Part shown: piece by piece, positions 8,840 to 45,655 of the stretch
How positions within the stretch are numbered: position 1 is the first letter of the stretch
How the letters are laid out: each line of letters opens with the position of its first letter
Assembly (NCBI GenBank): GCA_017458335.1
Contig: JAFTFT010000040.1
Location: 45,405-109,404, forward strand
Source: Oscillospiraceae bacterium
GTDB lineage: Bacteria; Bacillota; Clostridia; Oscillospirales; Oscillospiraceae
Length of the DNA stretch: 64,000 nucleotides
Reading direction: 5' to 3'
Notes under the pieces: model-generated
Database searches by the model: none
Told to the model about the DNA's origin: nothing
Seen by the model: only the letters and a program-made list of their open reading frames with translations
Made by a program: the position numbers and the translations under genes

Positions 8840-8921
8840 CGCTTGACAGAAGTGATATGATATGAATTTGGAAAAGAGATACTCCGCGAGGAGTGTCCGA
8901 GTAAATGGAGGCAAGTACAGA

Positions 8922-11061: not shown

Positions 11062-11062
11062 G

Positions 11063-30583: not shown

Positions 30584-30662
30584 GGCGGATTCAGATGATG
30601 AAAAAGGCTTGAGTTCTCTTCGGATCGGAAAGCTCGGAGACGGACAAAAGACAAGAAAACGA

Positions 30663-30702
30663 AAATGCGAAGCAGACGGAAAAGACCGCCTGCTTCGCAT
30701 TT
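30663..30702. terminator. Bidirectional terminator between copA and the secreted repeat protein
   Basis: Seventeen-base arms (AAATGCGAAGCAG... / ...CTGCTTCGCATTT) with one mismatch and a 6-nt loop, serving converging genes. Confidence 0.85.
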
Positions 30703-30741
30703 AAGTTAATTGTGAATTGCGGAAGGGGAGAACGGAGAAAA

Positions 30742-32643
30742 TCAGCCGTTTTCTCCCTCTGTGAAGTCATCGTAGCCGCTGTCGGCGAAGACTTCGTCGA
30801 GCGCGAGCGCAAAATCATCCAGGGTGCTGTCGACCCATCCGTCGCCGGGATCGGAACCGTCGTCGTAGTTGCTTCCGGCCCAGCCGCCGTCGTCGTAAGT
30901 GTAATCCTCCATCTCGTCATAGGGATAGTTGCTTCCGGCCCAGCCGCCGCCGTCGTAATCCTCCATCTCATCATAGGGATAGTTGCTGCCGGCCCAGCCG
31001 CCCTGGTCGTCGGCTGTGGGCGTGGGGGTGCTCGGAACGACAGGATCGGTGCCATAGATGTCGACAGAATAGATGCTGCCTTCATTCAGAGGCTCGGTAT
31101 AATAGGCCACGCAGCTGCATCCGTCCGTCAGAACGCCGGATACCAGATCGCAGAGATAGCCGTTGACATGATAGGAAGAGCCGTTGGCCAGCACAATGTA
31201 AACGGTGAAGGCAGTGTCATGGTAGGCGGTGCCGCTCATGGAGCCGTAGCGGATCTCGGGTTCGGGATCTTCGCCCTGAATGGCGACATAGTAAAAGCCG
31301 GGGCCGTGAGCGCCGATGCCGTCATAATAGAGCGTGCAAGGAGCGCCGATGCAGAGGTCGCCGGTAATGTCACAGATGCTGCGGGATACCTGGGAGACAT
31401 AGCCGGGACCGTCCATCACGTAGATCGAGACGCTGCTGTAGGTATAGTCGGTCACGTAACCGGAGAAGCTTCCGCTCTGATCCTCCGCGGGCACGGGCTT
31501 CGGCGTGACAGTGGGCGTCGGTTTCGGGGTCCCTTCTACATACATATACGCCGTGCTGGTGCGGGCGGTCTGACCGGCATAGTAGAAGGTGCAGAAGGCG
31601 CCCCAGCCGTTCATATCCCGCGTGACATTGGCGATGCTGAGCGTCGTGCTGTACTCGCCGGACACGGAGGCATTGAACATGCGGGCAAAGTTCTGCACGG
31701 TGTACTGACCGCCGTCCGGACCGACAAAGGTCCAGGTGAGCGAGTCATAGATGTTGGAGCAGGCGACAAAGTACGCGGTTCCGCCCTGCTTCTTGTTCTC
31801 ATTGGTCGGGTTCTTGGTGATGGTGAGGTAAGCGGGCTTGGTGTTCTGCGGAGCGGGCGCAATGGTGGGAACCGGCGTGGGGGTGGGATTGTCCTGCAGC
31901 GCCGCCGGCTTTGGTACCGGGAACACGTCCGTCAGCTTTTTCTCACCCTTGAAAACGGCATAGCTGTCCGCCAGACGGGAAATGGAAGCCTTGTCAAAAA
32001 CAAACCAGTCGAAGCTGGTGTTGCTCTTCTCGGCCGAGGCGAAAGCGTTGACGCCGGAGGCGTTGTACTGCTCGGGGGAGATGGCAAAACCGTTGGCGTC
32101 CGTGTGGGAGACGTTCCGGACACCGTTGTTGATCTGGGTGTGCTCCACGGCATAGGGCACATAGCCGATGATGCCGTCGCTCATGCTGACCGAGCACTTG
32201 ACCGTGTAGACGTCGTAGTCGGAGAGCACGACATTGTCATAGAACATATAGGACCAGGTATTCGTGTCCTTGTTGTAATACGTATCGGCACTCTCCGTGA
32301 GAATGTCGGGGAAGGACTCGTCCGCATCGATATTCAGGCGGCCTTCCGTCAGAGAATCCATGGTGTCGCTGACTTCCCAGACCTTCAGATTGGTGGAGCG
32401 GTCTGCCGGGTGCTGCGCCGCGGCGACCAGTTCCAGATGACCGTCATGATCGAGATCGGTCACGGAGTAATACCACTGCATCTGGCCGGCCTGCTTCTGT
32501 TCCGCAATCTTGGTAAAGAGCAGACCGATCTGCTGGTCAATTGTTTCAGCTGCGTTTTCGGCGCCGGCGGCCGGGGCGAGCACGGTCATGGTGATTACCA
32601 TCACGAGTGCGAGCAGAACGCCCATGAAAGTTTTTGCTTTCAT
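30742..32643 (-). CDS. Large secreted protein with C-terminal WAGSNYPYDEMEDY repeats
   Basis: A 633-residue exported protein of unknown function. A signal peptide covers residues 1-28 (VLLALVMVITMTVLAPAAGA). Residues 30-230 include DLDHDGHLELVAAAQ, an FG-GAP-like acidic loop. Two Pro/Thr linkers separate an Ig-like domain (about 290-380) and further beta-rich modules with paired cysteines. The C-terminal 100 residues are strongly acidic and contain three imperfect copies of GGWAGSNYPYDEMEDY. No sortase motif or anchor is visible, so it is probably released or held non-covalently. ATG 32643 follows GGAGG by 8 nt. Adhesion or carbohydrate binding is possible but unproven. Confidence 0.8.
   Translation of the reverse strand: MKAKTFMGVLLALVMVITMTVLAPAAGAENAAETIDQQIGLLFTKIAEQKQAGQMQWYYSVTDLDHDGHLELVAAAQHPADRSTNLKVWEVSDTMDSLTEGRLNIDADESFPDILTESADTYYNKDTNTWSYMFYDNVVLSDYDVYTVKCSVSMSDGIIGYVPYAVEHTQINNGVRNVSHTDANGFAISPEQYNASGVNAFASAEKSNTSFDWFVFDKASISRLADSYAVFKGEKKLTDVFPVPKPAALQDNPTPTPVPTIAPAPQNTKPAYLTITKNPTNENKKQGGTAYFVACSNIYDSLTWTFVGPDGGQYTVQNFARMFNASVSGEYSTTLSIANVTRDMNGWGAFCTFYYAGQTARTSTAYMYVEGTPKPTPTVTPKPVPAEDQSGSFSGYVTDYTYSSVSIYVMDGPGYVSQVSRSICDITGDLCIGAPCTLYYDGIGAHGPGFYYVAIQGEDPEPEIRYGSMSGTAYHDTAFTVYIVLANGSSYHVNGYLCDLVSGVLTDGCSCVAYYTEPLNEGSIYSVDIYGTDPVVPSTPTPTADDQGGWAGSNYPYDEMEDYDGGGWAGSNYPYDEMEDYTYDDGGWAGSNYDDGSDPGDGWVDSTLDDFALALDEVFADSGYDDFTEGENG
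30855..31003 (-). repeat. In-frame tandem repeats coding WAGSNY units
   Basis: Three copies of a roughly 48-60 bp unit coding (GG)WAGSNY(PYDEMEDY), the last shortened, near the 3' end of the secreted protein gene. The copies are nearly identical at DNA level. Confidence 0.8.
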
Positions 32644-32686
32644 TCCATATACCTCCATTGAATACAATTACCTGAAAGGTATTGAA

Positions 32687-32715
32687 ATTTTAATACAGAT
32701 GAGTGAAAAATGCAA
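32687..32715 (-). promoter_or_regulatory. Promoter for the secreted repeat protein
   Basis: TTGCAT (32710-32715), 17 bp, TAAAAT (32687-32692) on the minus strand, 43 bp from the start codon. Confidence 0.7.
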
Positions 32716-32788
32716 CGATCCTAAGAAATAATTCATATTTTCAGCTGTGGAGCGAAAACCGTCCCCGAAAACTTGCTGAAAAAAAGTC

Positions 32789-32817
32789 TTGCATTTTCCT
32801 GCCGAGTGTGCTATTAT
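32789..32817 (+). promoter_or_regulatory. Promoter for tRNA-Arg
   Basis: TTGCAT (32789-32794), 17 bp, TATTAT (32812-32817), 18 bp upstream of the tRNA 5' end. Confidence 0.75.
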
Positions 32818-32835
32818 CTTTGAGCTGTCAGAAAT

Positions 32836-32912
32836 GCGCGATTAGCTCAGCTGGATAGAGCGTCTGGCTACGGACCAGAAGGTCAGGGGTTCGAATCCCT
32901 TATCGCGTGCCA
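32836..32912 (+). tRNA. tRNA-Arg (anticodon ACG)
   Basis: A 77-nt cloverleaf with encoded CCA. Acceptor arms are GCGCGAT / ATCGCGT (one G-U pair), D arm GCTC...GAGC, anticodon loop CTACGGA giving ACG, and T arm AGGGG-TTCGAAT-CCCTT. The 3' half, from the anticodon loop onward, is duplicated at 40040-40088, so this gene is the integration target, rebuilt by the element. Confidence 0.95.
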
Positions 32913-32915
32913 GCA
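32867..32915 (+). repeat. Left attachment repeat (tRNA side)
   Basis: 49 bp identical to 40040-40088, beginning at the tRNA anticodon loop (GCTACGG) and ending three bases past the CCA. Sequence identity stops at both edges. Confidence 0.95.
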
Positions 32916-32917
32916 AA

Positions 32918-32948
32918 AACCCCCGAAATCATTGAGGTTTCGGGGGTT
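32918..32948 (+). terminator. Terminator after tRNA-Arg, inside the element
   Basis: Perfect 11-bp arms (AACCCCCGAAA / TTTCGGGGGTT). The element thus brings its own terminator for the rebuilt tRNA gene; the original one appears at 40090-40122. Confidence 0.85.
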
Positions 32949-33043
32949 CGTCTTTTTCTGCAGAATGCCGGAAAAACAAAAATGTCGGAAAAATGTCGGA
33001 GTACTGTGAAGAAATCGGAAAATGTCGGCTGCAGATGAAAATT

Positions 33044-33069
33044 GCCGGACGGAGGAAGCCCCGCCCGGC
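33044..33069 (-). terminator. Terminator after the 105-codon element gene
   Basis: Nine-bp arms (GCCGGGCGG / CCGTCCGGC on the minus strand, one G-T pair) followed by AATTTTC. Confidence 0.65.
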
Positions 33070-33077
33070 TTTTCGTA

Positions 33078-33395
33078 TTACTCCGTGATAAGAGGCTGAG
33101 AGGATTGCTCAGCGTCTTCAATGTCCTCCTTGATTCGTTCACAGTACACGTTGTAAATATCCTGGATAGCGTCAATCTCTCTCCAGAATCCATAGTTTTC
33201 TGAGGAGTCAGACGGCCTCAGTTTTGGCAGCTCAATTTCAAAGAGCCTGTCAAGAACAGTTTCCAGCACTTTCATGCTGCATTCTGCCTGAGTGATGGCG
33301 GCAAAGGTGCTGTCCCGCTCTTTGAGCAAGTTCATAATTTGCTCTGAGGTCATTTTCTCAGCGTGGGCAAGAATGATTTTGTCGAGTTCGTTCAT
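33078..33395 (-). CDS. Small hypothetical element protein
   Basis: A 105-residue, largely helical, acidic protein with no recognised domain. It starts MNELDKIILAHAEKMTSEQI and has no signal peptide or membrane segment. AAAGGAG sits 9 nt before ATG 33395, and a terminator follows the stop directly, so it is a credible gene. It is the last minus-strand gene of the element, between the integrase and the attachment site, where excision or copy-control accessory genes are often found. That role is only positional. Confidence 0.65.
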   Translation of the reverse strand: MNELDKIILAHAEKMTSEQIMNLLKERDSTFAAITQAECSMKVLETVLDRLFEIELPKLRPSDSSENYGFWREIDAIQDIYNVYCERIKEDIEDAEQSSQPLITE

Positions 33396-33549
33396 TGTGT
33401 TTCGCTCCTTTCTTGAATGCGGGAGCGGGATGTGATATAGTATTTCCCGCCCCCGGCCGGGGGTGTTTATAGAGCTGCTGCTGATCTGTGAGAGGTGAAA
33501 GCTGCAGCTCTTTCTTTATGCCGTCTCCGGCATGAAAGACACTGTTTCA

Positions 33550-34983
33550 TCACTGAGCCTGAGCCTGTTTCTGTTCCGGCTTCTTGAAGAGTACATCTGC
33601 AATACAATCAGATGCAGCCTCATCTGCAGCCTTGATTGCTGTGGCATATATGTCAACCGTTGTGCTTGTTCTGGAGTGGCCAAGGCGTTTGGAAACGGCA
33701 AGAATGTCAATGTGATTCGCAATCAGAAGAGAAGCCATAGCATGCCGGAAAAGATGCGGGTGAAGGTGCACCAGTTCATGACGTGCTGCAAAATCGTTAA
33801 GCCAAGCTGTGATTGAATCCGGGTGCATGCGGTCTCCGTTGTCCTGGGTAAACACATAAGGCGTATCAATCCAAGCATCGCCGAGGCGTTTCTTTGCGAA
33901 TCCCTGTTCAAGTTGCCACTGTTCAAGGAGCTGCTTTGCATCCTCCGGGATTTTGATATATCTGTTCGACTGCTTTGTTTTCGGAGTGGTTTCATAAACC
34001 CCGCGAGACTTGCTATAGAGGAGATTGTGAGCAATCCGGATTTGGTAGTTGTCTAAATCCACATCCTCCCAATGAAGGCCCAAAATCTCACCGCGCCGCG
34101 CGCCTGTGGCAATCATGAGATACACAATTGTTTTCTGCTTCAGAGGCTCCAGCGCGAGTGCATCAATCACCTGTTTCAACTCCTCCGGCTGGAGGGTTTC
34201 AATCTCCGGCCTCTCCAGCTTTGGAGGAGTGGCCTTTGCTGCAGCGTTGTAAGGAACAAGCATTTCTTTTTCTGCCTGAGAAAGGATTGTGCTTATCAGT
34301 CTGTGATGCTCAAGACAGGTCTTTGAGGAGAGCGGCTTTGCGTTCTGACTGACAGTGAACAGAGATTCGACCGTGAGGCCAAGAGGAGCGGCCACCTTTT
34401 CGGCCGTTGCCCGGTTTACCTGATTGCCCTTTAGAATTACATCAAGGGAGGCCGGAGCAATGCCGCAATGCCTTGAGAAAGATTCCTTTGATGTGAATCC
34501 GTTGCCTTTCATGAAAGATATGATTTTGTCCGGAGTTTTCTTCCTGGGCTTGGCTTTCTCACCGCTGATCCGGATTCCACCTTCAGCGAGATTCCGGTAA
34601 AACAGGTTCAAATGCTGAGGCCGTATTTCTGAGAGTTTCAAATGCCCGATTGCCGGATTGATCCTTTTGAGCAAGGCAGCATAAGCGTCAAGTGTTTTGG
34701 TTTCGCAACCTTGCTGCTTTTTGAGGTCCATCACATAAGATGCATACTGTTCAAAAGTCTGCTTGTCTCCGGAGACCATATCAAACCCCTGAGCGAGGCC
34801 CCTTTCGAAATCGTCTGCAGCTTGCTTCACATATTTCTCAATCTGCCTTGCTGTTTTCCCTTGAAGCTCCGCTGGACTGATGGTTTTGTATTCGCGTTTC
34901 ACTTTCCCGGCCAGCGTCCCGGTAACAACCTCAATCCGGTATGAGGTCCCTTTCTTGCCCTCCAATTTCTTGATAGATGCCAT
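33550..34983 (-). CDS. int: Tyrosine recombinase (integrase) with an internal HTH-like insert
   Basis: A 477-residue phage-type integrase. The N-terminal Arm-binding domain (about 1-60) is followed by the core-binding domain. Between its helices, residues about 125-205 carry an extra XRE-like segment (SKESFSRHCGIAPASLDVIL ... NRATAEKVAAPLGLTVESLF). The catalytic domain has TGARRGEILGL (Arg I), HLFRHAMASLL (H-x-x-R), LGHSRTSTT and the nucleophile region VDIYAT. All catalytic residues look present. AGGAGG precedes ATG 34983, 3 bp after the repressor stop, so int is co-transcribed with the repressor. It should recombine the 49-bp tRNA-Arg repeat. Confidence 0.93.
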   Translation of the reverse strand: MASIKKLEGKKGTSYRIEVVTGTLAGKVKREYKTISPAELQGKTARQIEKYVKQAADDFERGLAQGFDMVSGDKQTFEQYASYVMDLKKQQGCETKTLDAYAALLKRINPAIGHLKLSEIRPQHLNLFYRNLAEGGIRISGEKAKPRKKTPDKIISFMKGNGFTSKESFSRHCGIAPASLDVILKGNQVNRATAEKVAAPLGLTVESLFTVSQNAKPLSSKTCLEHHRLISTILSQAEKEMLVPYNAAAKATPPKLERPEIETLQPEELKQVIDALALEPLKQKTIVYLMIATGARRGEILGLHWEDVDLDNYQIRIAHNLLYSKSRGVYETTPKTKQSNRYIKIPEDAKQLLEQWQLEQGFAKKRLGDAWIDTPYVFTQDNGDRMHPDSITAWLNDFAARHELVHLHPHLFRHAMASLLIANHIDILAVSKRLGHSRTSTTVDIYATAIKAADEAASDCIADVLFKKPEQKQAQAQ

Positions 34984-34986
34984 TTT

Positions 34987-35700
34987 TCACGCCTCCTCAG
35001 AATTCATCATTATTTCCGTCAATTCCCGCTCTGAATCTTGAATATTGATTATTTTCAGAGAATTTCTTACAAGTTCGTTGAAATCCTCATAGAGCTCATA
35101 CAGATTAAATTTCAAGTCGCGCAATTCAAGATACACGGTTCCTACATCTGTTTGAGAACGCTTGTTTCTCACCGCTGATATACCCTCTTGAACTACTTCA
35201 TTGTGAGTCTCTAAGGTCCGGAGAAGAAGAGAAAGCATCAGGATATTATCATCTTCCAAAATCTTATTGAGTGTGGAGGCATGCAAGAAAGCAGCTTTCC
35301 TTAGATTCTCAACTGCTTTCTCAGAGAGGCCTGTGAAAGATGCGGCCCCGGCAAGGCTGGAATCAGTTGTTTTCACTTCTGATTTCCCGGTAATGTAATC
35401 TGCAGATACCCCGAAAAAATCACTCAGATAATAGATAACCTGTGCACTCATTCCAAGGTTTTTCCCAAACTTAGGATTATACTCATAATCATCAATCTCA
35501 TAGTTCAGGATGGATGATTTTGAGAGCTTAAAACCGTCTGCAGCATACTTTGTTTCGATCATCTCTGACATTCGATCCATTGAGAGAGGCTTGTTATCCG
35601 GAGTCTGGTATGAAAGCCTCAATTGCCTCAGTCTATGTGCTATCTCCTCAGAAAGAATTATTTCTTTCGGGGATAGCACTTTTTCATCTTTTGTCTTCAT
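34987..35700 (-). CDS. XRE-family repressor-like regulator of the element
   Basis: A 237-residue DNA-binding protein. The N-terminal HTH region (about 20-100) includes LRQLRLSYQTPDNKPLSMDRMSE and ADYITGKSE, the usual end of a Cro/CI helix bundle. A helical C-terminal domain (about 115-237) probably mediates dimerisation or signal sensing. It is transcribed divergently from the structural genes at 35865 onward, across a 164-bp gap with dyad-like AT-rich sequence, so it probably controls the lysogeny-type switch. AAAGGAG precedes ATG 35700. No peptidase-type cleavage domain is seen, so induction may be by protein interaction, as for satellite repressors. Confidence 0.88.
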   Translation of the reverse strand: MKTKDEKVLSPKEIILSEEIAHRLRQLRLSYQTPDNKPLSMDRMSEMIETKYAADGFKLSKSSILNYEIDDYEYNPKFGKNLGMSAQVIYYLSDFFGVSADYITGKSEVKTTDSSLAGAASFTGLSEKAVENLRKAAFLHASTLNKILEDDNILMLSLLLRTLETHNEVVQEGISAVRNKRSQTDVGTVYLELRDLKFNLYELYEDFNELVRNSLKIINIQDSERELTEIMMNSEEA

Positions 35701-35770
35701 ATTGTCTCCTTTGCTGAATTTATTACACTTTAATGTGCTTTATGCTGATAAAATTGCACTTCCTTCTTCT

Positions 35771-35799
35771 TGCTTCTTGTGCTCTTGTCTGGTAGAATT
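35771..35799 (+). promoter_or_regulatory. Promoter for the element's plus-strand operon
   Basis: TTGCTT (35771-35776), 17 bp, TAGAAT (35794-35799) with a TG extension just upstream of the -10. About 65 nt of leader precede ATG 35865. Confidence 0.7.
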
Positions 35800-35864
35800 C
35801 AGTCATCGTCGGCGATACTATAGCAGAAAAAAATCACCATGTCAAGAATAGGAGGTTTTTATTT

Positions 35865-36065
35865 ATGGCAAATGAGGCAATCCGCAAGGCGGCAAGGTGT
35901 GCCGGGGTTCCGTTTTGGGCAATCGCTCATGCGCTGGAAATCAGTGAGGCGACTATGACCCGGCGAATGAGAACTGAGCTTTCTCCGGAGGAGACAGAAC
36001 GTGTCCTTAGAGCTATCGAAAATCTGAGGCATGGCCAGCGTGCAGAACAGCTCATTTTGAAATGA
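35865..36065 (+). CDS. Small HTH protein (Cro-like)
   Basis: A 66-residue basic helix-turn-helix protein: AIAHALEISEATMTRRMR forms a classic HTH (residues about 18-36), and the rest is helical. AGGAGG lies about 9 nt before ATG 35865. As the first gene opposite the repressor, it sits where phages encode Cro or an activator. The small size and position suggest an early regulator; the function is inferred. Confidence 0.75.
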   Translation: MANEAIRKAARCAGVPFWAIAHALEISEATMTRRMRTELSPEETERVLRAIENLRHGQRAEQLILK

Positions 36066-36082
36066 GCAAGGAGGTTTGAAGG

Positions 36083-36349
36083 ATGGAAAAACTCAAAACC
36101 AGAATGAGAACACTTGAACAGGCCTTCAATGCTGTCAAAGAATCCGATCCGGAAACCTGTCTCACAAAATACGGCCTCCGGCAAGCTGTTCTCACTGGGA
36201 AAGTTCCCTCTGTGAAATGCGGGAAAAAGTATCTCGTCGACCTGGATGCCCTTCAAGAGTGGCTTCAAGGCAGCACCGCGCCGGAGTTCCCTGAGGTCTC
36301 CTCCGGAGGAATTCGCCGGATTGATGCTTCCCGGCCGCGCGTGATTTGA
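36083..36349 (+). CDS. Excisionase/MerR-type HTH protein
   Basis: An 88-residue protein with a winged-helix excisionase-like segment: LTKYGLRQAVLTGKVPSVKCGKKYLVDLDALQEWLQ (residues about 27-62, quoted in parts below 20 here: LRQAVLTGKVPSVKCGKKY). This is the pattern of HTH_17/Xis-like proteins that bend DNA at attachment sites or act as AlpA-type activators. An AGGAGG-like site (AAGGAGG) precedes ATG 36083. It is probably the excision or activation factor of the element. Confidence 0.75.
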   Translation: MEKLKTRMRTLEQAFNAVKESDPETCLTKYGLRQAVLTGKVPSVKCGKKYLVDLDALQEWLQGSTAPEFPEVSSGGIRRIDASRPRVI

Positions 36350-36367
36350 TCTCCGGGAGGTGAGAAC

Positions 36368-36880
36368 ATGCCGAAAGGCGTTGTGATTCTCCCAAGCTAT
36401 TACGAGGCCCTGAAAGTCCTGGATGAGATAGACCGTCTCCACGTCCTGGAAGCTGTCATTGAGTACGGCCTTTACGATTGTGAGCCTCAGCTTTCTCCCG
36501 CTCTGAATGGTTATTTTCTTCTCATCAAGCCTAACATCGATGCATCACAGCGGCGGCATGCTGCAGCTGTGAATAATGGAAACCTTGGAGGAAGGCCGCC
36601 AAAGAACCAGAGCAAAAACCAGTCTGAAAACCAGAGCCAAAACCAGAACCGGAAGCAGATGAATAACCAAGATTTAGATTTAGAGAGAGATTTCGATTCT
36701 GATTTGGAGAGGGGAGACGGAGATAGAGGAGGAGAGGGGATTCCCAAGGGGGACGGAGGGGAAAGGACCGTTGCTTACGGCAATCCGTATAAGCCGCCGT
36801 CAGAGGAAGCTATGATCCGGAAGCGGGATGAGGCAGTGTCCAGCTTTGAGGAGTATCTGAGAAAGCAATCTCAACAGTGA
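36368..36880 (+). CDS. DUF6291-like phage protein
   Basis: A 170-residue protein. The N-terminal 75 residues (VVILPSYYEALKVLDEIDRL ... NGYFLLIKPNIDASQRRH) match the DUF6291-type domain seen in phage and mobile-element replication regions. A low-complexity stretch of Asn/Gln/Lys repeats (NQSKNQSENQSQNQN, about 90-105) and an acidic Asp/Arg tract follow. GGGAGGTG lies before ATG 36368. Related phage proteins are often fused to, or next to, primosome or DnaD-type replication functions; here no replication domain is visible. The family call is from memory of the N-terminal pattern. Confidence 0.6.
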   Translation: MPKGVVILPSYYEALKVLDEIDRLHVLEAVIEYGLYDCEPQLSPALNGYFLLIKPNIDASQRRHAAAVNNGNLGGRPPKNQSKNQSENQSQNQNRKQMNNQDLDLERDFDSDLERGDGDRGGEGIPKGDGGERTVAYGNPYKPPSEEAMIRKRDEAVSSFEEYLRKQSQQ

Positions 36881-37213
36881 ATGAGAATGTGTCTGTCCAG
36901 CTGGAGGAGAGAGGCAGCTGCTACACATACAGAAAGCAATCTGTTCTCTTTCCTCAAGCTGTGATGAATAGAATCACTGTTCAAAGCTGGAGTATTCGCG
37001 ACAGCAAAGAAGGCTTCCGTCATTCTCCGGAGCAACTGCAGCATCGAATGAATCTTCTCAGCATCACATGAACAGCTGCAGCCGCCTCAGGAAGAGCATA
37101 CCCCCCAAGGGGTGAGGATGCGAAACCCCATTTTGACGGCCGTGCGCCCTCCTCTGTTCGCATCGAAACCGATTTTTGAAGGGGGTGTACCCCATCGAAA
37201 GGAAGTGATGACA
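36881..37213. other. Gap with inverted repeats upstream of the terminase-like gene
   Basis: 333 bp without a convincing gene. The right half (37100-37195) has two GC-rich hairpins (CCCCCCAAGGGG and GGGGGTGTACCCC) around an 8-bp inverted repeat GATGCGAA (37117-37124) / TTCGCATC (37157-37164). A short GTG-started frame (36877-37071) overlaps the previous stop but lacks a ribosome binding site. The site is a candidate packaging or regulatory element. Confidence 0.45.
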
Positions 37214-37654
37214 ATGGCAAAGAAAACGGTTCAGAGAGCGACAGATGACCCGGAAGTTGCTCAAGAACTTGCACGCTTGAAAGGCCTTTTTGCGGCTGAT
37301 CCGGCCGCGCTGGAGCTTCATGAACAACTGCTTGAAAGATGCGCGTTCTTAGCTGTTTCTCTCCGGCGGCTGGAGGTCCTGATGATCCGGGACGGATTTT
37401 GTGAGGAATACAAAAACGGCAATGCTCAAAACGGCCGAAAAAGGACCCCGGAGGCAGCTTTGTACACTGATTTTTCGAAACTGTATCTGAGCAGCTTGAA
37501 GGCCCTGAGGGATGCTTTCGGGGACCGTCTGTCACAAAATGAAGATGAATTACTTGAATTCTTCAAAAGGCAGTGGCAGCAAGACCAAAATGCAGAAATG
37601 CCGCAATACGTCCGGGACCGAATCGAGCAAATGGATGAATTTGAGCTGTTCTGA
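37214..37654 (+). CDS. P27-like phage terminase small subunit (candidate)
   Basis: A 146-residue mostly helical protein. The central region (LLERCAFLAVSLRRLEVLMI ... GRKRTPEAALYTDFSKLYL ... LKALRDAF) resembles P27-family small terminases, which carry the same 'Gly...Arg-x-Pro...helix' pattern. Small terminases recognise the packaging site and, in satellites, divert helper-phage packaging. ATG 37214 is preferred because AAAGGAAG lies 8 nt upstream; an ATG at 37208 is too close. The C-terminus is acidic and aromatic (MDEFELF). The assignment is moderate; a profile search against P27/Terminase_4 would decide it. Confidence 0.5.
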   Translation: MAKKTVQRATDDPEVAQELARLKGLFAADPAALELHEQLLERCAFLAVSLRRLEVLMIRDGFCEEYKNGNAQNGRKRTPEAALYTDFSKLYLSSLKALRDAFGDRLSQNEDELLEFFKRQWQQDQNAEMPQYVRDRIEQMDEFELF

Positions 37655-37666
37655 GGAGGTATAAAA

Positions 37667-37807
37667 ATGAGATGGGCAAGGTGTGATGCCTGTGGAAATT
37701 ATAGCCGGGTGAAAATTCCGTGTGACCGTGTTCGTCTATATAAAGAGCGGGGAGACTCACTGTTTTCACGAAAGGCAAGGCCCCGCAAAGCAAAGAAGCG
37801 CAAATGA
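37667..37807 (+). CDS. Small basic Cys protein (46 aa)
   Basis: A 46-residue protein beginning MRWARCDACGNYSRVKIPCD, with CxxC plus a third Cys suggesting a small zinc finger, and a very basic tail (RKARPRKAKKRK). GAGGAGGT lies 6 nt before ATG 37667. It starts 12 bp after the terminase-like gene. The size and basic tail fit nucleic-acid binding; no family was recognised. Confidence 0.6.
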   Translation: MRWARCDACGNYSRVKIPCDRVRLYKERGDSLFSRKARPRKAKKRK

Positions 37808-37818
37808 GGTGAAATGCA

Positions 37819-38013
37819 ATGGCCACAAGAGCTATTCAGACGCGCAAGAAACCGCGCCTCCCACCTCAGAGCCAGCTGAGCGAGAGAAACCGAAAACGTT
37901 ATTGTCTCCCGGAAGGGTTCAATACATTCTGTGGAGCGTGCTGCATGGCCGCGCCTGGATGTGATAAAAAATGCCCTCTGAGGCTGCTCAAGCACTCAGA
38001 GAGTAAAAAATAG
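37819..38013 (+). CDS. Small Cys-rich element protein (64 aa)
   Basis: A 64-residue basic protein whose C-terminal half has five cysteines (FCGACCMAAPGCDKKCPL), a possible metal-binding knuckle. GAGGTG sits about 7 nt before ATG 37819, and the capsid gene begins 19 bp after its stop. It is in the late-gene block, so a role in assembly or DNA handling is possible but not shown. Confidence 0.55.
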   Translation: MATRAIQTRKKPRLPPQSQLSERNRKRYCLPEGFNTFCGACCMAAPGCDKKCPLRLLKHSESKK

Positions 38014-38032
38014 AAACGGAGGAAAAAGAAAC

Positions 38033-39514
38033 ATGTTCAAAGATTATGAGAACTATGAGCACTTCAAAGATTATGCCAATGACCGAAATGCCGCAATGCA
38101 TGACGCGCTGCACGATCCGGAAGCAATCATATTTGCTCTTGGCACTGAGGGAGCTGTCAACCTGATAAAGAGTTTCGCTGCAGCTGAGCCGGGTTTTGCC
38201 GAGAAGCTGAGCGGGAGCCGGTTTGAAAAGCTGATCTCAGACGGTCCATATTTCGTGCGGAAAACGATGGGACTGTCCGGAGCGGTTTCAAAGGCTGGTT
38301 ACCTGGGCGGAACTATCCGGAGCAATCAAGAATTGGAGAAGGCCCGGAAAGAGGCTAAGGATGCGAAATCCCGCCTTCAGCTGATCCATGAGGCAAACAA
38401 AATTCAAGAGAAATTTGGAGGAGAAGAAAAAATGATGAATTCCAGCATTTCAGAATCAAAACGTTATGAGGCAGTCGGAGAGTTTTTCAAGGCAGTTCGT
38501 GAGAAAGACAGTTTCAAAGCGTGGACTGTTGCAAAGTCCTCTAATGCTCTTGGAGCTATCCCTGAGGAGTCTTTGGGTAAGGGTGACAAGCTCCTTCCCC
38601 GGCATTTTGCCCGGAAGATTATCACCGCCGCTGTTGGCCGCAATGCATTGCGTGAACTGGAGCACGCAACTTATGTGAATGGCCTTGATGAGGGAATTCT
38701 GGTTCCCTTCACTTTCGACAATTTCGGAGATAAGGTCTTTCTCACTGACTCTGAGACCGCTCAAGAGCTGGAGCTGCAAGGCGATATGGCAAAGTTCACC
38801 GCCCATAAAGTCAAGATTTGCACTGTCGTTTCTGATACGGTATTCTATCTTTCCTCCAGCGATATTGGAGAAGCGATTGAGCGAGTCCTTGCAACTGGAC
38901 TTGAAGCAAAAGAGAATCTGTGTGTATTTGCTGAGGTAGCGGATGCCGAAAGCAGCCACATGAGTTTTTATCTGAATGACCTCAAGGTTGTCGAAGGCGA
39001 AAACCTCATTGCAGCGATTCATGCAGCCGCCGCCGATCTTGGCGAGACGTTCTCCAACAATGCCTCAGTTGTCATGAGGAGAGAGGATTATTACAATTGC
39101 GTGCGTGCTATCGCTCAAAATGGCGGCCTGTGGGGTGCATCACCGGAGGATATTTTGGGAATGCCTGTTGTGTTCTCAGAGTTTGCCACCACTCCCATTG
39201 TTGGTGATTTCCGGTATGCTCATTTCAACTACAGCAACATTCTCTTTGACCTTGATAAGGATCCCCGGAGCGGCAATATTCACTTCGTTCTGACAGCTTG
39301 GCTTGACCACCGGATTCTTATCAAGAATGCCTTCCGCTTGGCCAAGGTATCAAGTGAGACCCCGGGTGAGTCCGGGACTGATCCGGAAAACGGAAACTCT
39401 GGAAGTGAAACCGGGACCGATCCGGAGACCGGAAACACCGGAAGCGATTCGGTGATTGATCCTGAGGCCGATCCTGGGACCGGGAATGAAACAGGAAGCG
39501 AAAACAACGGATAA
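38033..39514 (+). CDS. HK97-fold phage major capsid protein
   Basis: A 493-residue capsid protein. Residues about 1-105 are an N-terminal extension of unknown fold, and about 105-140 are a charged coiled segment typical of the delta/scaffold region. The HK97-like body follows: HKVKICTVVSDTVFYLSS (P-domain strand), FAEVADAESS, then LWGASPEDILGMPVVFSEFA and IVGDFRYAHFNYSNILFD before a terminal AWLDHRILIKNAFRLAKV. The last 55 residues are an acidic Gly/Ser/Thr tail with imperfect GTDPENGN repeats. GGAGG precedes ATG 38033. No protease or portal gene accompanies it, which is rare for this family. Confidence 0.88.
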   Translation: MFKDYENYEHFKDYANDRNAAMHDALHDPEAIIFALGTEGAVNLIKSFAAAEPGFAEKLSGSRFEKLISDGPYFVRKTMGLSGAVSKAGYLGGTIRSNQELEKARKEAKDAKSRLQLIHEANKIQEKFGGEEKMMNSSISESKRYEAVGEFFKAVREKDSFKAWTVAKSSNALGAIPEESLGKGDKLLPRHFARKIITAAVGRNALRELEHATYVNGLDEGILVPFTFDNFGDKVFLTDSETAQELELQGDMAKFTAHKVKICTVVSDTVFYLSSSDIGEAIERVLATGLEAKENLCVFAEVADAESSHMSFYLNDLKVVEGENLIAAIHAAAADLGETFSNNASVVMRREDYYNCVRAIAQNGGLWGASPEDILGMPVVFSEFATTPIVGDFRYAHFNYSNILFDLDKDPRSGNIHFVLTAWLDHRILIKNAFRLAKVSSETPGESGTDPENGNSGSETGTDPETGNTGSDSVIDPEADPGTGNETGSENNG

Positions 39515-39532
39515 ATCAGAATAGCGATAAAA

Positions 39533-39565
39533 AAGGCCGTCTCCGGGTAATGAAGAGACGGCCTT
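39533..39565. terminator. Terminator after the capsid gene
   Basis: Perfect 11-bp arms (AAGGCCGTCTC / GAGACGGCCTT), flanked by A-runs on the left, so strongest as a minus-strand terminator; it lies 18 bp after the capsid stop. Confidence 0.75.
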
Positions 39566-40039
39566 AATCGTGCACATAGACACGCTTACCCACTGTTTGA
39601 TTGTGTTTCCCTCCTCCGGTCTGCGGACCCGGAGGAGAGAAACGTTCTCTTCATCAAAGGAGAAATGAAGAGGATAACACATAATAGCGGACTGAGTGGA
39701 GATTGTCAAGCCTCCCTGAGCCTCAGAAACGGCCTTTGTTGCGTTTTGCTGTGAATATGGTATTCTTCACGTCTGAGACTGCCAAATGCGCCCTGAGTCA
39801 TCACAGCGGCCAGAGCGTGAAAATGAATTGCGTTCCTGAGTTCACTGTGATATACTTCATCCGGAAACGATGCTTTGACGGTCCTGTTTTCGACCTGTTT
39901 TTTGTCGGAAAAATGTCGGAATGAATCGTCAATAATCACCAAAAATGACAAATGATTACAAAGTGTCAAGTCGGCAAAAGCATAGTAATTACTGATGGTT
40001 TCGCGAAATCACCAACAATGGCCGGAAGTCAAAAAATCA

Positions 40040-40088
40040 GCTACGGACCAGAAGGTCAGGGGTTCGAATCCCTTATCGCGTGCCAGCA
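40040..40088 (+). repeat. Right attachment repeat
   Basis: 49 bp identical to 32867-32915: the displaced 3' part of the original tRNA-Arg gene. Confidence 0.95.
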
Positions 40089-40089
40089 G

Positions 40090-40122
40090 AAAACCGCTTG
40101 ATTGAAGAAATCAAGCGGTTTT
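40090..40122 (+). terminator. Original tRNA-Arg terminator, displaced by the element
   Basis: Fourteen-bp arms (AAAACCGCTTGATT / AATCAAGCGGTTTT) followed by T-rich sequence, immediately after the right attachment repeat. Confidence 0.85.
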
Positions 40123-40222
40123 TGGTTTTCCGGAAGTTTTTATTCTCCTCTAAAGTTCGATGGATGCGGACAGGCTTTACTTGACCGACACATACCAATG
40201 ATGTGCGATCAGGAATTTTCGA

Positions 40223-40251
40223 TTGACAAAATCTCCTATAGCCCCTATAAT
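40223..40251 (+). promoter_or_regulatory. Full-consensus promoter with no gene behind it
   Basis: TTGACA (40223-40228), 17 bp, TATAAT (40246-40251). Confidence 0.85.
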
Positions 40252-40257
40252 GAAAAC

Positions 40258-40345
40258 ATAAAAGGCGTTGCCGAAAGCGGCTCCGTCCAATTAGGAAATC
40301 AAAAAGAAACCGTCACTGGGCAAGAGTGGCGGTTTCACCTTTTAA
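40258..40345 (+). ncRNA. Candidate small RNA of about 88 nt
   Basis: A consensus promoter is followed about 50 nt later by a terminator-like hairpin (40306-40336; 12-bp arms GAAACCGTCACT / AGTGGCGGTTTC, one G-T pair) and CCTTTT. The transcript would have an internal GCCG-AAAG-CGGC hairpin and no credible open frame. It matches no RNA family that I recognise. Confidence 0.45.
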
Positions 40346-40606
40346 CACGTATCGTTATAGTATATCCGAAGATATGAAACGTCAATGTTATTGGCATATT
40401 CAACACCCCCCTTCGGGTGGTGTGACAGAACCGCCTTTTTTCACTTGGCAACGCCTGCTCCGGAGAGCATCTGTATCTTACAGGATCTGGCTACATCTGT
40501 CAATTGGGTTTTCAAAGCAGTTCCGCGTGCCCTTCAACCGCCTTTTCAATCCTCTGTGGCTCAATACCGATATAGCACTGTGTGACGGCAGAAAGGAGAG
40601 TGCTAT

Positions 40607-40663
40607 ATGCTGTTGCCTGATTTGCAGAGACTGAAACAGATCTATGATTTTGGCGGGGAATAA
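40607..40663 (+). CDS. 18-codon frame before the zeta-like gene (leader or truncated antitoxin)
   Basis: The frame codes MLLPDLQRLKQIYDFGGE and has AAGGAG 8 nt upstream of ATG 40607, a better ribosome binding site than the next gene has. It ends 21 bp before the zeta-like start. It may be a leader peptide that couples translation, or the remnant of an epsilon-type antitoxin gene. Confidence 0.4.
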   Translation: MLLPDLQRLKQIYDFGGE

Positions 40664-40684
40664 CGATAAAACAGGTGCGATAGA

Positions 40685-41245
40685 ATGAAGACTTTTACAA
40701 TCATCGGCGGCGTGAATGGCACCGGAAAGAGCAGTCTCACCGGGGTCCTGAAGGCGCAGACAACCAATCTTGGGCAGATTATCGATTTGGATATAATTAC
40801 CGCCGAGAACGGCGGCAGCGCCATTCAGGGCGGTAAGATCGCTTTGGAGCGGATAAGGGCATGTCTGAACAAGGGAATCAGCTTCGCACAGGAAACGACA
40901 CTCTCAAACAGCAAGACGGAACTGACGGCGAAGGAAGCGCAGGAGCGAGGATACTCCGTCCGGCTTTTCTATGTTGGCCTTGACAGCGTCGAGGAGTGCT
41001 TGCAGCGTATTGAGAACCGTGTTGCCCATGGTGGGCATGATACATGCAGGGAAGATGTGCTGCGGTGTTTTGCCGGCCGCTGGGAGGATGTGGCGAATGT
41101 TTTGCCTTATTGTGACGAGGCGCACTTCTTCGACAACTATAACGGCTTTGTTGAAGTAGCTGAATATAAAAACGGAGAATTGCTCCTGAAAGGGGACAAC
41201 CGTCCGGATTGGGTTCTGGAGCTGAAAGAAGCGCTGAACCGATGA
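40685..41245 (+). CDS. Zeta-toxin-like P-loop kinase
   Basis: A 186-residue P-loop protein of the zeta toxin / AAA_33 group. Walker A is GGVNGTGKSS (8-17), an aspartate follows in IIDLDIITAE, and ETTLSN aligns with the substrate-binding region of zeta enzymes, which phosphorylate UDP-sugars. The length is at the short end for the family. There is no clear antitoxin gene: only an 18-codon frame precedes it. It sits just outside the element's right end. Many solitary proteins of this group are housekeeping or of unknown role, so toxicity should not be assumed. Confidence 0.75.
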   Translation: MKTFTIIGGVNGTGKSSLTGVLKAQTTNLGQIIDLDIITAENGGSAIQGGKIALERIRACLNKGISFAQETTLSNSKTELTAKEAQERGYSVRLFYVGLDSVEECLQRIENRVAHGGHDTCREDVLRCFAGRWEDVANVLPYCDEAHFFDNYNGFVEVAEYKNGELLLKGDNRPDWVLELKEALNR

Positions 41246-41294
41246 GCGCTTATCGCTGATATGATCCCCTGATGACCTTCTTGATCTTCTGGAG

Positions 41295-41348
41295 AAAACA
41301 AAGAAACGGAGGACTGCACTAATGTGCTACCCTTCGTTTCTTTGTTTT
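41295..41348. terminator. Terminator after the zeta-like gene
   Basis: Perfect 14-bp arms (AAAACAAAGAAACG / CGTTTCTTTGTTTT) with a long 26-nt loop, 50 bp past the stop. Confidence 0.7.
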
Positions 41349-41468
41349 CAACCTGTGGGATGATTCCCTGCAATAGGCACAGCGGCCGCCGAGATAGATC
41401 GCGAGGGAGAAAATGATGGAGTTCCCGAGTGTCGGTTTCAAAGAGAGCCAGGCCGAGAACCACAAAAG

Positions 41469-41594
41469 CTACTGCTCGTCGTCCTCATCGTCGCTGCTGT
41501 CATCCTCGTCGAAGGGGTTGCGCTCCCGCTCCGCCTGCTGCTGTTTTTCCATCTTGTCCATGTAGAGAAAGTAACCGAGCGTATCCAGATCCAT
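41469..41594 (-). CDS. 41-residue acidic protein downstream of the CARF nuclease
   Basis: A 41-residue protein starting MDLDTLGYFLYMDKMEKQQQ and ending in a highly acidic tail (FDEDDSSDDEDDEQ). AAAGGAG lies 10 nt before ATG 41594. It starts 42 bp after the CARF nuclease stop on the same strand with no terminator between, so it is probably co-transcribed. An acidic small partner could act as an inhibitor or DNA mimic, but this is only a suggestion from composition. Confidence 0.65.
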   Translation of the reverse strand: MDLDTLGYFLYMDKMEKQQQAERERNPFDEDDSSDDEDDEQ

Positions 41595-41636
41595 GCTGTG
41601 AACTCCTTTCATGTCGGTATTTCCGGTACTGCTTTT

Positions 41637-42827
41637 TTAATCTGCGACCCGGATCAGGTTGCGCAGACGTTTGTCAAAGTGCTTGTTGAGCATGTTGTTC
41701 AGATCATCCAGGTCAAAGACGTCGATCCCCAGTTCGGAAGCACGGTTGCGCATGGCGGCGCCGCCTTTTTCGGCCGTGACGATGGCGGCTCTGGCGATCT
41801 TGCCGCCGAAGCGGTCCCGGAGAATCGCAAGCTCATTCAGTGCCTCGGTCTTCACGTCACAGGTCTTGCAGCTGATGAAGACCGGCGTGATTCCACGGGT
41901 GCACATGACGTCAAGCTCATTGGTGACGGCGTTCTGACGGCCGCTGCCGTCCCAGTCTACGACTGCGCTGGTGATGACATCCTGGAAGAGTCCGGTGTCA
42001 AGACAGGCTTTGTAGATGAAGAGCTCCAGAACGCTGCCGACATCCCGGAGCCAGGTTCGGATCTGGGCGTCCCGGAAGCGGAAGGATACCGATTCCTCCG
42101 GGGTGATCTTCAGCTCCGAGAGAAAGCCGATCGCTTCGAGATCGCGCAGGGCTGCCTCGGGCGCCGAGATACGGGCGGCCCGCTCACCCTTCACGGTGTA
42201 TCCGCCGGAGATCGAGAGAGAGAAGTGTCCTTCGGAATCCGCCGGAGAGAGACGTTGAATAAAGGTCACGATCTTGGTCCACTGACGGCGATGCTTCAGA
42301 TAGACCCGGAAGAAAGGTTCAATGTCATCCATGTACCCGGAGAGAATGGAATTATCCACACGGCCGGGGCGCATGGAGCCGCCCGCCATCAGGAAGCAGT
42401 CTTCCACGGTGTAGTTGACATCGCAGGGAAGACCGTCACCAAAGGCGGCATTGCGGATGTTGTAGAACTTGTTCTCCTTCCGGCTGTAGGTGATGACCGG
42501 AATGGCCGCCTCCGCGCTGAGCAGGCCGGCGGCAAACAGCACCGCGTCGGTGCCTCCGGTAATGTCCAGCACGCTGTCCGGATAGAGCGAGAGAACCTTC
42601 CGGAAGACCCGCAGCATTTCCTCCGCGTCATACATGCCGGCACGGTAGAAGATCAGCTCCACATGCAGCCCGCGATGCTTAAAATAGAGACGGAGCTTGT
42701 TCTGCAGGTTGAGATCGGAGGCGATGCTTCCGGTACAGATGTAGACAACCCGTTTCGGGTGAAACATGTCCACGCCGAGAACGTTTTCCAATGGCCGTTC
42801 GTCATAGAGTTCGATCAGAGTTTCCAT
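41637..42827 (-). CDS. Card1/DUF1887-type CARF-domain nuclease
   Basis: A 396-residue protein of the DUF1887 (VC1899/Card1/Can2) type. The N-terminal CARF-like Rossmann domain has VVYICTGS (27-34) and VLDITGGTDA (87-96), the loops that bind cyclic oligoadenylate in characterised members. A winged-helix linker covers about 180-255. The PD-(D/E)xK nuclease domain has E268, NELDVM (E304, D306) and ISCKT (K321). Characterised relatives cut DNA or RNA when a type III CRISPR complex makes cyclic oligoadenylate. No CRISPR array or cas gene is in this window. Promoter at 42863-42891; AAAGGG precedes ATG 42827. Confidence 0.85.
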   Translation of the reverse strand: METLIELYDERPLENVLGVDMFHPKRVVYICTGSIASDLNLQNKLRLYFKHRGLHVELIFYRAGMYDAEEMLRVFRKVLSLYPDSVLDITGGTDAVLFAAGLLSAEAAIPVITYSRKENKFYNIRNAAFGDGLPCDVNYTVEDCFLMAGGSMRPGRVDNSILSGYMDDIEPFFRVYLKHRRQWTKIVTFIQRLSPADSEGHFSLSISGGYTVKGERAARISAPEAALRDLEAIGFLSELKITPEESVSFRFRDAQIRTWLRDVGSVLELFIYKACLDTGLFQDVITSAVVDWDGSGRQNAVTNELDVMCTRGITPVFISCKTCDVKTEALNELAILRDRFGGKIARAAIVTAEKGGAAMRNRASELGIDVFDLDDLNNMLNKHFDKRLRNLIRVAD

Positions 42828-43008: not shown

Positions 43009-43596
43009 TTACACAAAGCGCCCGTCCTGATAGCGCAGAACGCGGCAGCCGAGGGTTTTGGCTTCTTCTTCACTGTGGGTGACCAGAAGCAGGGAGGCCG
43101 ACTGCAAGGAAGTGTTCAGCAGCGAGACTATGCGGCCGCGCAGCTCGTCATCGAGTCCGCGGAAGGGTTCGTCCAGTACCAGCAGGTCCGGCCGAAAGGC
43201 AAGCGCACGGGCGATGGAGACCCGCTGCTGCATGCCGCCGGAGAGCTCCGCGGGGTATTTCTCCACGGCGTCGGAGAGTTCCACCCGTTCCAGCATGGAG
43301 AGTGCCTCCGGCATGGTATCCGGGGTGTCGGAGAGAACGACGTTCACGTTCTCGGCGGCCGTGCGCCAGGGAAGCAGGCGGGGCTCCTGAAAGACCGCGG
43401 CGGTTCGACCCGGGTCACCGGAGACCGAACCCGTATCCGGAGGCTGCAGAGAGAGCGCGACACGCAGGAGCGTCGTCTTGCCGCAGCCGGAGGGCCCCAT
43501 CAGGGCGAGCCGTTCACCGTCACCGAGAGAGAGGCCGCAGCCGGAGAGAACGGATTTTCCGTCGTAGCGGACAGAGATGTTGTTCAGTTCAAGCAT
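43009..43596 (-). CDS. ABC transporter ATP-binding protein (SsuB/TauB/ThiZ-like)
   Basis: A 195-residue ATPase, slightly short for the family (about 230-260). Walker A GPSGCGKTT (34-42), Q-loop FQEPRLLPW, signature LSGGMQQR, Walker B LLVLDEP and the H-loop THSEEE are all present. The FQEPRLLPW sequence is characteristic of importers in the nitrate/taurine/aliphatic-sulfonate/thiamine-precursor group. It overlaps the permease gene by 8 bp and is last in the operon regulator - binding protein - permease - ATPase. Confidence 0.92.
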   Translation of the reverse strand: MLELNNISVRYDGKSVLSGCGLSLGDGERLALMGPSGCGKTTLLRVALSLQPPDTGSVSGDPGRTAAVFQEPRLLPWRTAAENVNVVLSDTPDTMPEALSMLERVELSDAVEKYPAELSGGMQQRVSIARALAFRPDLLVLDEPFRGLDDELRGRIVSLLNTSLQSASLLLVTHSEEEAKTLGCRVLRYQDGRFV

Positions 43597-45333: not shown

Positions 45334-45354
45334 GGTAAATTCCTTTCCTGATGA

Positions 45355-45630: not shown

Positions 45631-45655
45631 TTTTGCTTCCTTTCCCGCCGAAACG

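Follow-up and report, generated by a model that had tools for sequence, protein, structure and literature searches.

A probable PICI-like satellite with a Ccm-like capsid gene and its own terminase small subunit in a tRNA-Arg gene of an Oscillospiraceae bacterium

Limits of the element and its integration and control genes

The window analyzed here, a stretch of 64,000 nt from contig JAFTFT010000040.1 (GCA_017458335.1; positions 45,405 to 109,404, forward strand), contains an element that is inserted cleanly in a tRNA-Arg(acg) gene (32836..32912, forward strand; ARAGORN, Rfam RF00005). The 3' end of this integration target forms the attL core (32867..32915) and recurs as the attR core (40040..40088), giving an exact forward-strand direct repeat of 49 nt that encloses 7.17 kb and confirms the limits proposed in an earlier, sequence-only reading, which had described a 49-bp direct repeat, taken from the 3' end of tRNA-Arg, around 7.2 kb. 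The flanking repeat is 96% identical over 56 nt in a longer alignment, and a 34-nt part of it had no match in 100 shuffles. A sibling species (G110) has an empty site, where the tRNA-Arg gene is uninterrupted and the flanking regions adjoin it in the expected order. GC content is 0.48 within the element and 0.60 elsewhere in the window. All listed ORFs of the element are open.

The left part of the element encodes leftward integration and repressor-like genes that diverge from the remaining genes. A reverse-strand ORF of 105 aa (33078..33395), preceded by a Shine-Dalgarno-like sequence, matches no family above cut-off. The tyrosine integrase (33550..34983, reverse strand; PF00589 2.2e-25, phrog_1 6.4e-61) has a frame without stops, as expected from its earlier description as intact, and includes an internal Cro/C1-type HTH match (PF13443 7.8e-4, slightly under its cut-off). 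It is adjoined by an XRE-type repressor-like protein of 237 aa (34987..35700, reverse strand; phrog_8 1.2e-4), for which the Pfam profile scan gave no match. A promoter-like site for these two genes (TTGACA-17-TATAGT, 35817..35845, reverse strand) agrees with the consensus at 11/12 positions in a consensus scan, a match that by itself says nothing on function. The rightward genes begin with a 66-aa Xre-like HTH protein (35865..36065, forward strand; PF20432 3.5e-6) and an 88-aa HTH_17/excisionase-like protein (36083..36349, forward strand; PF12728 0.0028 and TIGR01764 9.8e-4, both below cut-off), the gene for which is found again next to related integrases. The XRE repressor and two HTH regulators of the sequence-only reading are thus present, the repressor with weak profile support. 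The divergence of the integrase and putative master repressor from the other genes is as in Gram-positive PICIs, with the repressor called from its weak profile match and its position. Islands of the genus that carry other TerS-like genes contain relatives of the integrase and of the HTH genes.

The next forward-strand gene encodes a DUF6291 protein of 170 aa (36368..36880; PF19808 1.9e-12), possibly a replication factor, and contains three repeat copies at 12-nt spacing (36605..36652, forward strand), which may be an origin. This gene and these repeats are the only candidates for a replication module in the element; no known replication protein was found there. The DUF6291 gene, the cos-like site, and two small ORFs between terS and the capsid gene did not figure in the earlier reading.

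The cos-like site, terS, and the capsid gene

The gene at 37214..37654 (forward strand, 146 aa) had been described as terminase-small-subunit-like, and it matches phrog_1066 at 9.5e-16. Its identification as TerS comes from synteny: in two named phages the gene for such a protein immediately precedes that for TerL, and TerL adjoins TerS of this type in 15/15 other places in the genus and order genomes searched. No TerL gene lies beside the TerS gene of the element.

Upstream of terS, phage-derived models and pairwise matches point to a cos-like site at about 37101..37189 (forward strand). A second-round model built from 47 phage regions places its best match in the window at 37139-37190 (E 0.0014); the site ranked only second with the first-round model (E 0.76) and was not among the matches up to E 0.05 in a model search of collected loci. 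A 50-nt match is shared with three phage loci (L078/L079/L082) and was reached by 0/200 shuffles for the two tested, L078 and L082. For the pairwise matches to L169, a resident prophage (C35), and L151, respectively 77/200, 3/200, and 11/200 shuffles did at least as well. In its strict form, the motif CCCCCC...GGGG(G/T)GTGT occurs in 9/88 TerL-upstream regions versus 6/1622 control windows, so its exact form is absent from most of these phages. L078/L079/L082, which belong to one phage lineage, combine the nearest TerS (39%) with MCPs that rank high among the matches (44%). Modest evidence suggests that the cos-like site resembles that of the phages with the nearest TerS, which is a new observation.

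Two small forward-strand ORFs follow terS, the first with 46 codons including Cys (37667..37807; no family above cut-off) and the second encoding a Cys-rich product of 64 aa (37819..38013; no PADLOC match). The spacings from terS through the two ORFs to the capsid gene are 12, 11, and 19 nt. The capsid gene (38033..39514, forward strand) encodes an HK97-fold major capsid protein (MCP) homolog of 493 aa, in agreement with the HK97-type assignment made earlier (PF05065 4.5e-8, TIGR01554 5.1e-12, phrog_10 1.6e-27, and PDB 7rwz chains B and A), and is followed by a hairpin with 11-bp perfect arms (39533..39565). The protein has a long N-terminal (delta-like) region and an acidic C-terminal tail. 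Profile matches to the phi12 capsid protein (CP; E 2.5e-149) and to Ccm (E 3.6e-20) place it, by sequence, in the phi12 CP / Ccm capsid family. It is strongly diverged: its end branch (2.42 versus a median of 0.16) is the longest among the 41 sequences compared, its best segments share no more than 45% identity with any phage copy found, and it retains 55/70 otherwise conserved sites, the lowest retention among the 41, a loss that would also fit relaxed selection. Neither this frame nor that of the integrase contains a stop, and an open frame of 493 codons has a chance of 5e-11 under evenly random codons. An in-frame ATG after GGAGGAG at codon 134 (38432) could in principle give a mature capsid protein by internal translation with no need for a protease; we set this aside as unproved because the cleavage site of phi12 aligns some 35 residues downstream of that codon.

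Missing phage genes and loci of relatives

Searches with tblastn and profile queries found no TerL, portal, protease, or any of several tail proteins between the repeats, and family scans of the listed ORFs recognized no lysis genes. The complete or near-complete gene set of a prophage is thus not recognized in the element, which is what the sequence-only reading had reported for portal, large terminase, protease, tail, and lysis genes. One explanation is that the element derives by deletion from an L078-like prophage that lost these genes, leaving terS and the MCP gene by chance beside a working integrase. The cos-like site, terS, and the MCP gene follow each other as they do in the phages, the MCP lacks 15/70 conserved sites, and part of its long branch could be due to a parent phage that was not sampled. 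This history would nonetheless require clean deletion ends on both sides of terS and of the MCP gene, tblastn detected no remnants of TerL, portal, or protease between these two genes, and the gap is filled by the two tightly spaced ORFs. A simple recent deletion is made unlikely by the adjacency of TerL to this type of TerS in all 15 other places found, by the presence of TerL and portal genes upstream in 119/134 loci of MCP relatives (the other 15 loci are cut off there), and by an MCP gene that is still open on the longest branch of the tree. We consider the deletion-derived remnant unlikely.

No second TerS-MCP module was found with the element DNA in 102 genomes of the genus (two candidates scored per genome) or in protein searches, a result that counts in favor of the remnant explanation and against a satellite. 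Element DNA matched 12/102 of these genomes, its own included; elsewhere the matches are short, lie in the integrase and left-end genes, and have at most 80% identity over stretches >60 nt. As single queries, the MCP, TerS, and DUF6291 proteins had no match in viral contigs, nor did the MCP as sole query in genome contigs. The DUF6291 protein matches 9/102 genus genomes, its own included, and the fetched DUF6291 loci of those genomes lack the TerS and MCP of the element. Among 18 tRNA-Arg stretches from 16 genus genomes (some, including the large intervals of G034 and G015, read partway), no complete prophage carrying this TerS and MCP was seen at the site; such a prophage in close relatives, or frameshifts in the capsid or integrase genes, had been named in the sequence-only reading as refuting it. 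The occupants seen are islands without a recognized head gene set, one of which carries TerS and TerL.

Comparison with known satellites and a proposed mode of spread

SaPIbov5 encodes an integrase and a repressor, as does the element, and a protease is identified in neither. The element further resembles SaPIbov5 and other cos SaPIs with Ccm in its cos-type packaging site, here recognized by sequence similarity, and in a phage capsid homolog of the same family (PDB 7rwz). In the cos SaPIs with Ccm, the 3' region of terS is described as all that remains of operon I, the rest having been replaced (PMC5052747), whereas the element has a full TerS gene; its 7.2 kb also differ from the size of about 15 kb stated for PICIs of Gram-positive hosts (PMC6092414), for which a later account gives an average of 9.5 kb (PMC10803314). 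Gram-positive PICIs are expected to lack phage structural and lytic genes and to be of larger size; the element has one capsid homolog, an exception shared with Ccm-bearing SaPIs, and measures 7.17 kb. Such PICIs are further characterized by a recognizable replication module, by an att site that prophages are not known to occupy, and by phage-dependent induction with high-frequency transfer. Its capsid protein is nearer to a true CP than Ccm is, and the two genes were therefore probably captured independently.

cf-PICIs carry TerS and an integrase and borrow their tails. The element shares with them its own capsid gene, TerS, and integrase and, as we propose, the borrowing of tails. However, cf-PICIs are reported to encode every protein for their own small capsids and for packaging (PMC12409344), and no TerL, portal, or protease is recognized in the element, which we do not read as a cf-PICI. 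They are also larger, as the sequence-only reading had noted, with an average size of 14 kb (PMC10803314). EcCICFT073 is likewise a satellite with a capsid homolog and cosN sequences and is packaged by a helper, as we propose for the element, but as described it lacks TerS and has a decoration protein (PMC6092414). The PICMI of Vibrionaceae is likewise a satellite of very small size and reduced gene content, differing, in the account given, by the lack of a capsid-remodeling gene and of an identified terS homolog (PMC10803314).

Given the clean insertion, the open integration and control genes with relatives in other islands of the genus, TerS accompanied by a cos-like site, and an MCP gene that has diverged but remains open, a satellite reading is well supported. 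We posit that the element is probably a PICI-like satellite of the cos type, integrated and apparently intact, which combines its own TerS with a Ccm-like MCP. The integrase would have placed it in tRNA-Arg, where the XRE repressor would hold it silent until growth of a helper phage induces its excision and replication. TerS and the cos-like site would then recruit the TerL of the helper to element DNA, and portal, protease, TerL, and tail would all come from the helper, so that the element would probably spread by having the helper build and fill particles. The capsid homolog would join head assembly like the Ccm of SaPIbov5, which switches head size (PMC8569155) and co-assembles with the helper capsid protein, and would favor heads that fit the small genome. 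Weighing against this proposal are the single copy of the TerS-MCP module, the lack of a known replication protein, the lost conserved sites of the MCP, the modest cos evidence, and the capsid homolog of EcCICFT073, for which no phenotype was detected (PMC6092414).

The sequence-only reading had proposed a minimal satellite that supplies only shell protein and packaging specificity and takes portal, protease, and motor from a helper. The satellite itself is well supported, genes for those three components are not recognized, and packaging and helper dependence are here predicted. A satellite contributing no more than an MCP homolog has a published precedent in SaPIbov5; because its Ccm co-assembles with the helper protein and does not form the whole shell, supplying the shell is one of two options. 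If the MCP alone formed all capsomers of a small head, the helper would give only portal, protease, TerL, and tail. The MCP scores much higher against phi12 CP (195 bits) than against Ccm (37 bits), its N-arm region aligns without a large gap, and it has its own long N-terminal region, while Ccm, described as unable to form shells alone, lacks a long N-arm (PMC8569155). Against this stand the poor retention of conserved sites and the lack of a recognized protease gene, and we judge a full shell somewhat unlikely. It overlaps with the co-assembling satellite that we prefer, so the likelihoods attached to the two do not sum to one.

The MCP homolog might instead act against the phage by poisoning head assembly of the helper, with the element either traveling as multimers spaced by cos sites inside heads of normal size or being immobile. 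PICMI concatemers are packaged in helper-size heads (PMC10803314), EcCICFT073 blocks lambda and its packaged DNA is of phage size (PMC6092414), and the MCP is diverged, all of which would agree with such a role. However, Ccm, the capsid homolog of demonstrated role, redirects size (PMC8569155), and the capsid homolog of EcCICFT073 has no detected phenotype, its deletion not relieving interference (PMC6092414). We regard an anti-phage MCP as quite unlikely.

If the proposed satellite is correct, the Ccm strategy, shown only in staphylococci in the literature that we found, evolved a second time in a gut lineage resembling Oscillospiraceae and fits, together with an own TerS, into only 7.2 kb. 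Judged from its genes, the combination of a Ccm-like MCP, TerS, and a cos-like site would be new on a known satellite plan; such a compact system would bear on which genes a satellite needs in order to own its particle and on why captured capsid genes diverge fast. Some "prophage remnants" in which a capsid gene stands alone may also be functional satellites. A broader and tentative idea, which we would not expect to hold but think conceivable, is that small integrative elements of this bacterial group repeatedly captured phage capsid genes and kept them as fast-diverging assembly parts. The element would then stand midway between Ccm islands and cf-PICIs and use a cos, a TerS, and a shell protein of its own to make a dedicated small head around the portal, protease, and motor of the helper.

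The resident C35 prophage, with portal, capsid, TerL, and tail genes, was considered as a helper. Its capsid protein is 37.5% identical to the MCP in one comparison and 41% in another, and a cos-model match lies between its HNH and TerS genes; its TerS, which we recognized only from its location and resemblance, belongs to another type, which leaves C35 as a candidate helper. Separately, the genus contains an unrelated 8.4-kb element. Of the trees made for it, one omits the L253 and L255 capsids owing to a filter and the other L255 and L206, and we draw no clade claims from them. In this 8.4-kb element an MCP is the sole recognized head gene, and the element is near-identical in assemblies of two species.

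Boundaries of the element and occupants of tRNA-Arg

The sequence-only reading described 7.2 kb bounded by a 49-bp direct repeat of the tRNA-Arg 3' end, and our analysis bears this out: exact 49-nt copies lie at 32867-32915 and 40040-40088, the tRNA-Arg(acg) gene occupies 32836-32912, and the insertion is therefore 7,173 bp. The GC content is 0.48 within the element versus 0.60 outside, and the listed ORFs account for 79% of its length. A 105-aa ORF, a tyrosine integrase, and an XRE-like protein are encoded leftward; two small HTH proteins, a DUF6291 protein, a terminase small subunit (TerS, 37214-37654), two small ORFs, and an HK97-fold capsid protein (MCP, 38033-39514) are encoded rightward. 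The integrase (33550-34983) has a Cro/C1-type HTH match, just under the cut-off, N-terminal to its catalytic domain.

The proposed comparison of boundaries with a related genome was also favorable, as a locus of a sibling species (G110 L336) is an empty integration site in which window segments 28000-30561, 32801-32913 (the tRNA region), 40040-40141, 41701-42827, and 43014-45684 align in order on a single contig. Window 30562-32800 and 40142-41700 have no alignment in this locus. The latter segment, which is lower in GC, includes a zeta-toxin-like gene (40685-41245) next to attR. We consider it very probable that the element is a satellite.

The same reading had suggested searching the tRNA-Arg sites of relatives, and 18 stretches from 16 genomes contained no capsid, portal, or large terminase subunit (TerL) gene by the profiles used, which represent one phage type; Pfam identified a TerL of another type in one stretch (L334). 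Several of these stretches hold two or more att cores and four (L329, L330, L331, and L345) carry islands of 5.4-6.3 kb; the tRNA-Arg site is therefore a hotspot of small islands. The window element is the only occupant of this site seen with a recognized capsid gene. The L334 occupant (5088-11742; G015:C46) encodes a related integrase, a DUF3987 protein, a TerS-like protein, and the TerL; over the portion covered, the profiles used returned no head gene.

Elsewhere in the genus, a related integrase and the 88-aa HTH protein are encoded together at L307, L308, L309, L310, and L312. L308 includes a TerS-like gene (phrog_2538, 1.1e-6; Pfam Sf6_terminase under the cut-off) and a gene for a protein of 231 aa that matches no family. 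L312 encodes a replisome organizer (phrog_5968, 2.8e-31) and also has a TerS match, though a weak one (3.8e-4). L329, L330, and L345, as well as L308 elsewhere, encode a protein of 222-308 aa with no Pfam or PHROGs match, which is perhaps another capsid factor.

Packaging genes and the cos-like site

The family matched by TerS, phrog_1066, has no named function, and the TerS assignment therefore rests on gene position. TerL adjoins TerS at 15 of 15 places identified in genus and order searches (window copy excluded), with a gap of at most about 350 nt, and in two named phages, Butyrivibrio phage Arawn and Clostridioides phage JD033, a phrog_1066 gene immediately precedes TerL. This family occurs in 5 of 102 genomes of the genus, and a TerS protein search matched 10 of 394 genomes of the order, own genome included in both counts; three of the order-level matches have weak E values, from 5e-5 to 2e-4.

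Window 37140-37189, located upstream of terS, matches equally placed regions of two phages of a single lineage, L078 and L082, with scores of 47 and 51, respectively; for each, none of 200 shuffles scored as high, the best L078 shuffle reaching 45. The match is weak for L169, the resident C35 prophage, and L151, being equalled in 77, 3, and 11 of 200 shuffles. A first cos model, built from eight distinct phage regions, matches 50 of 88 TerL-upstream regions at E<1e-3 and places 37141-37187 second in the window (E 0.76), the top place lying elsewhere (E 0.61). A second model, built from 47 distinct matches with the window excluded, ranks 37139-37190 best in the 64-kb window (E 0.0014; next 0.24), a test that is not blind because both models were built after the motif was noticed in the window. 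When the extracted loci were searched at a limit of 0.05, the matches included the site of the C35 prophage (L004 944-867, E 5e-4) but not the window site.

Divergence of the capsid protein and its possible role

A search with MCP identified a second, related copy in the own genome, within the C35 prophage. Matching genomes numbered 2 of 60 relatives (own and G015), 2 of 394 in the order (own and one weak match), and 2 of 391 in the class (own and G632), with only the first few candidates per genome scored. An alignment search of 134 loci (the best 80 of 204 viral_contigs relatives and 54 genome_contigs loci) places both TerL and portal upstream of MCP in 119; the other 15 (L072, L076, L081, L087, L110, L116, L119, L124, L130, L150, L154, L163, L183, L190, and L193) start directly at the first head gene or no more than about 310 nt ahead of it and are uninformative on this point.

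Of 41 chosen sequences in a tree, the window MCP, whose placement there is unsure, stands on the longest end branch (2.42; next 1.09; median 0.16), part of which an unsampled phage lineage could account for. At sites conserved to 95% or more among the other sequences, it retains 55 of 70; the next lowest sequence retains 57 of 66, and about 94% or more is retained by 37 of the other 40. Given the open frame and the retained core, we infer long-standing selection with altered demands. The N-terminus is some 50-70 residues longer than others in a six-sequence alignment, and the C-terminus has an acidic tail of about 50 residues. An in-frame ATG at codon 134 is preceded by GGAGGAG at 8-nt spacing (window 38417-38434), and a second, shorter product from this start is possible.

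PDB searches with MCP (limits of E 0.01 and 0.001), as a single sequence or a 41-sequence profile, matched only entry 7rwz, both to the phage phi12 capsid protein (E 1.8e-56 and 2.5e-149, respectively) and to Ccm, the capsid-size switcher of satellite SaPIbov5 (E 2.6e-8 and 3.6e-20). By analogy, the missing protease gene would be no obstacle. In the accessible text of the sources, satellites with a capsid homolog are represented by Ccm (PMC8569155, PMC5052747) and EcCICFT073 c1499 (PMC6092414), capsid-forming cf-PICIs carry a full capsid gene set (PMC12409344, PMC10803314), and Streptomyces satellites encode encapsidation genes (PMC10690885); within this satellite literature, mostly outside subscription journals and including PMC12324425, none is described that combines cos and TerS with just a single capsid gene. 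We posit that the capsid gene likely works in particle building with a helper.

Candidate helpers and other capsid-bearing elements

The own assembly (2.95 Mb, 84% complete), in which the window is part of contig 27, contains the C35 prophage, with capsid, protease-like, portal, TerL, tape-measure, and further tail genes. Capsid fragments lie at the ends of G000:C14 and G000:C31, one adjoining a TerL and the other on a short contig that also has a tape-measure match, which suggests that these ends may be halves of a second prophage and hence a second possible helper. PF04860 identifies the C35 portal and, below threshold, a match in C14.

PF05065 matches 71 places in the genus, distributed over 41 of 102 genomes (own included); 65 of these places were examined (all except G122:C13, G090:C68, G035:C274, G013:C47, G117:C59, and G085:C3), and the elements described here leave aside L240, L241, L242, L244, L245, L247, and L248, among others. 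At L028:390-4763 (G415:C99), a capsid gene adjoins serine recombinases on a contig that starts 390 nt before the capsid match. L253:1-8355 (G095:C22) and L254:5575-13929 (G006:C25) come from assemblies of two species and have 8,355 bp in common at 99.98% identity, which could reflect either a recent transfer or contamination common to both assemblies. This element encodes a serine recombinase, a D5-type primase, and a capsid protein of 312 aa whose branch in a tree is very long; among the ORFs scanned, which include part of the small ones, no second head gene was recognized. At L255:3919-12283 (G084:C2), portal and TerL were not found by the profiles used; its capsid gene adjoins a serine recombinase, and with a D5/NrS-1-type primase its gene set resembles that of L253 and L254.
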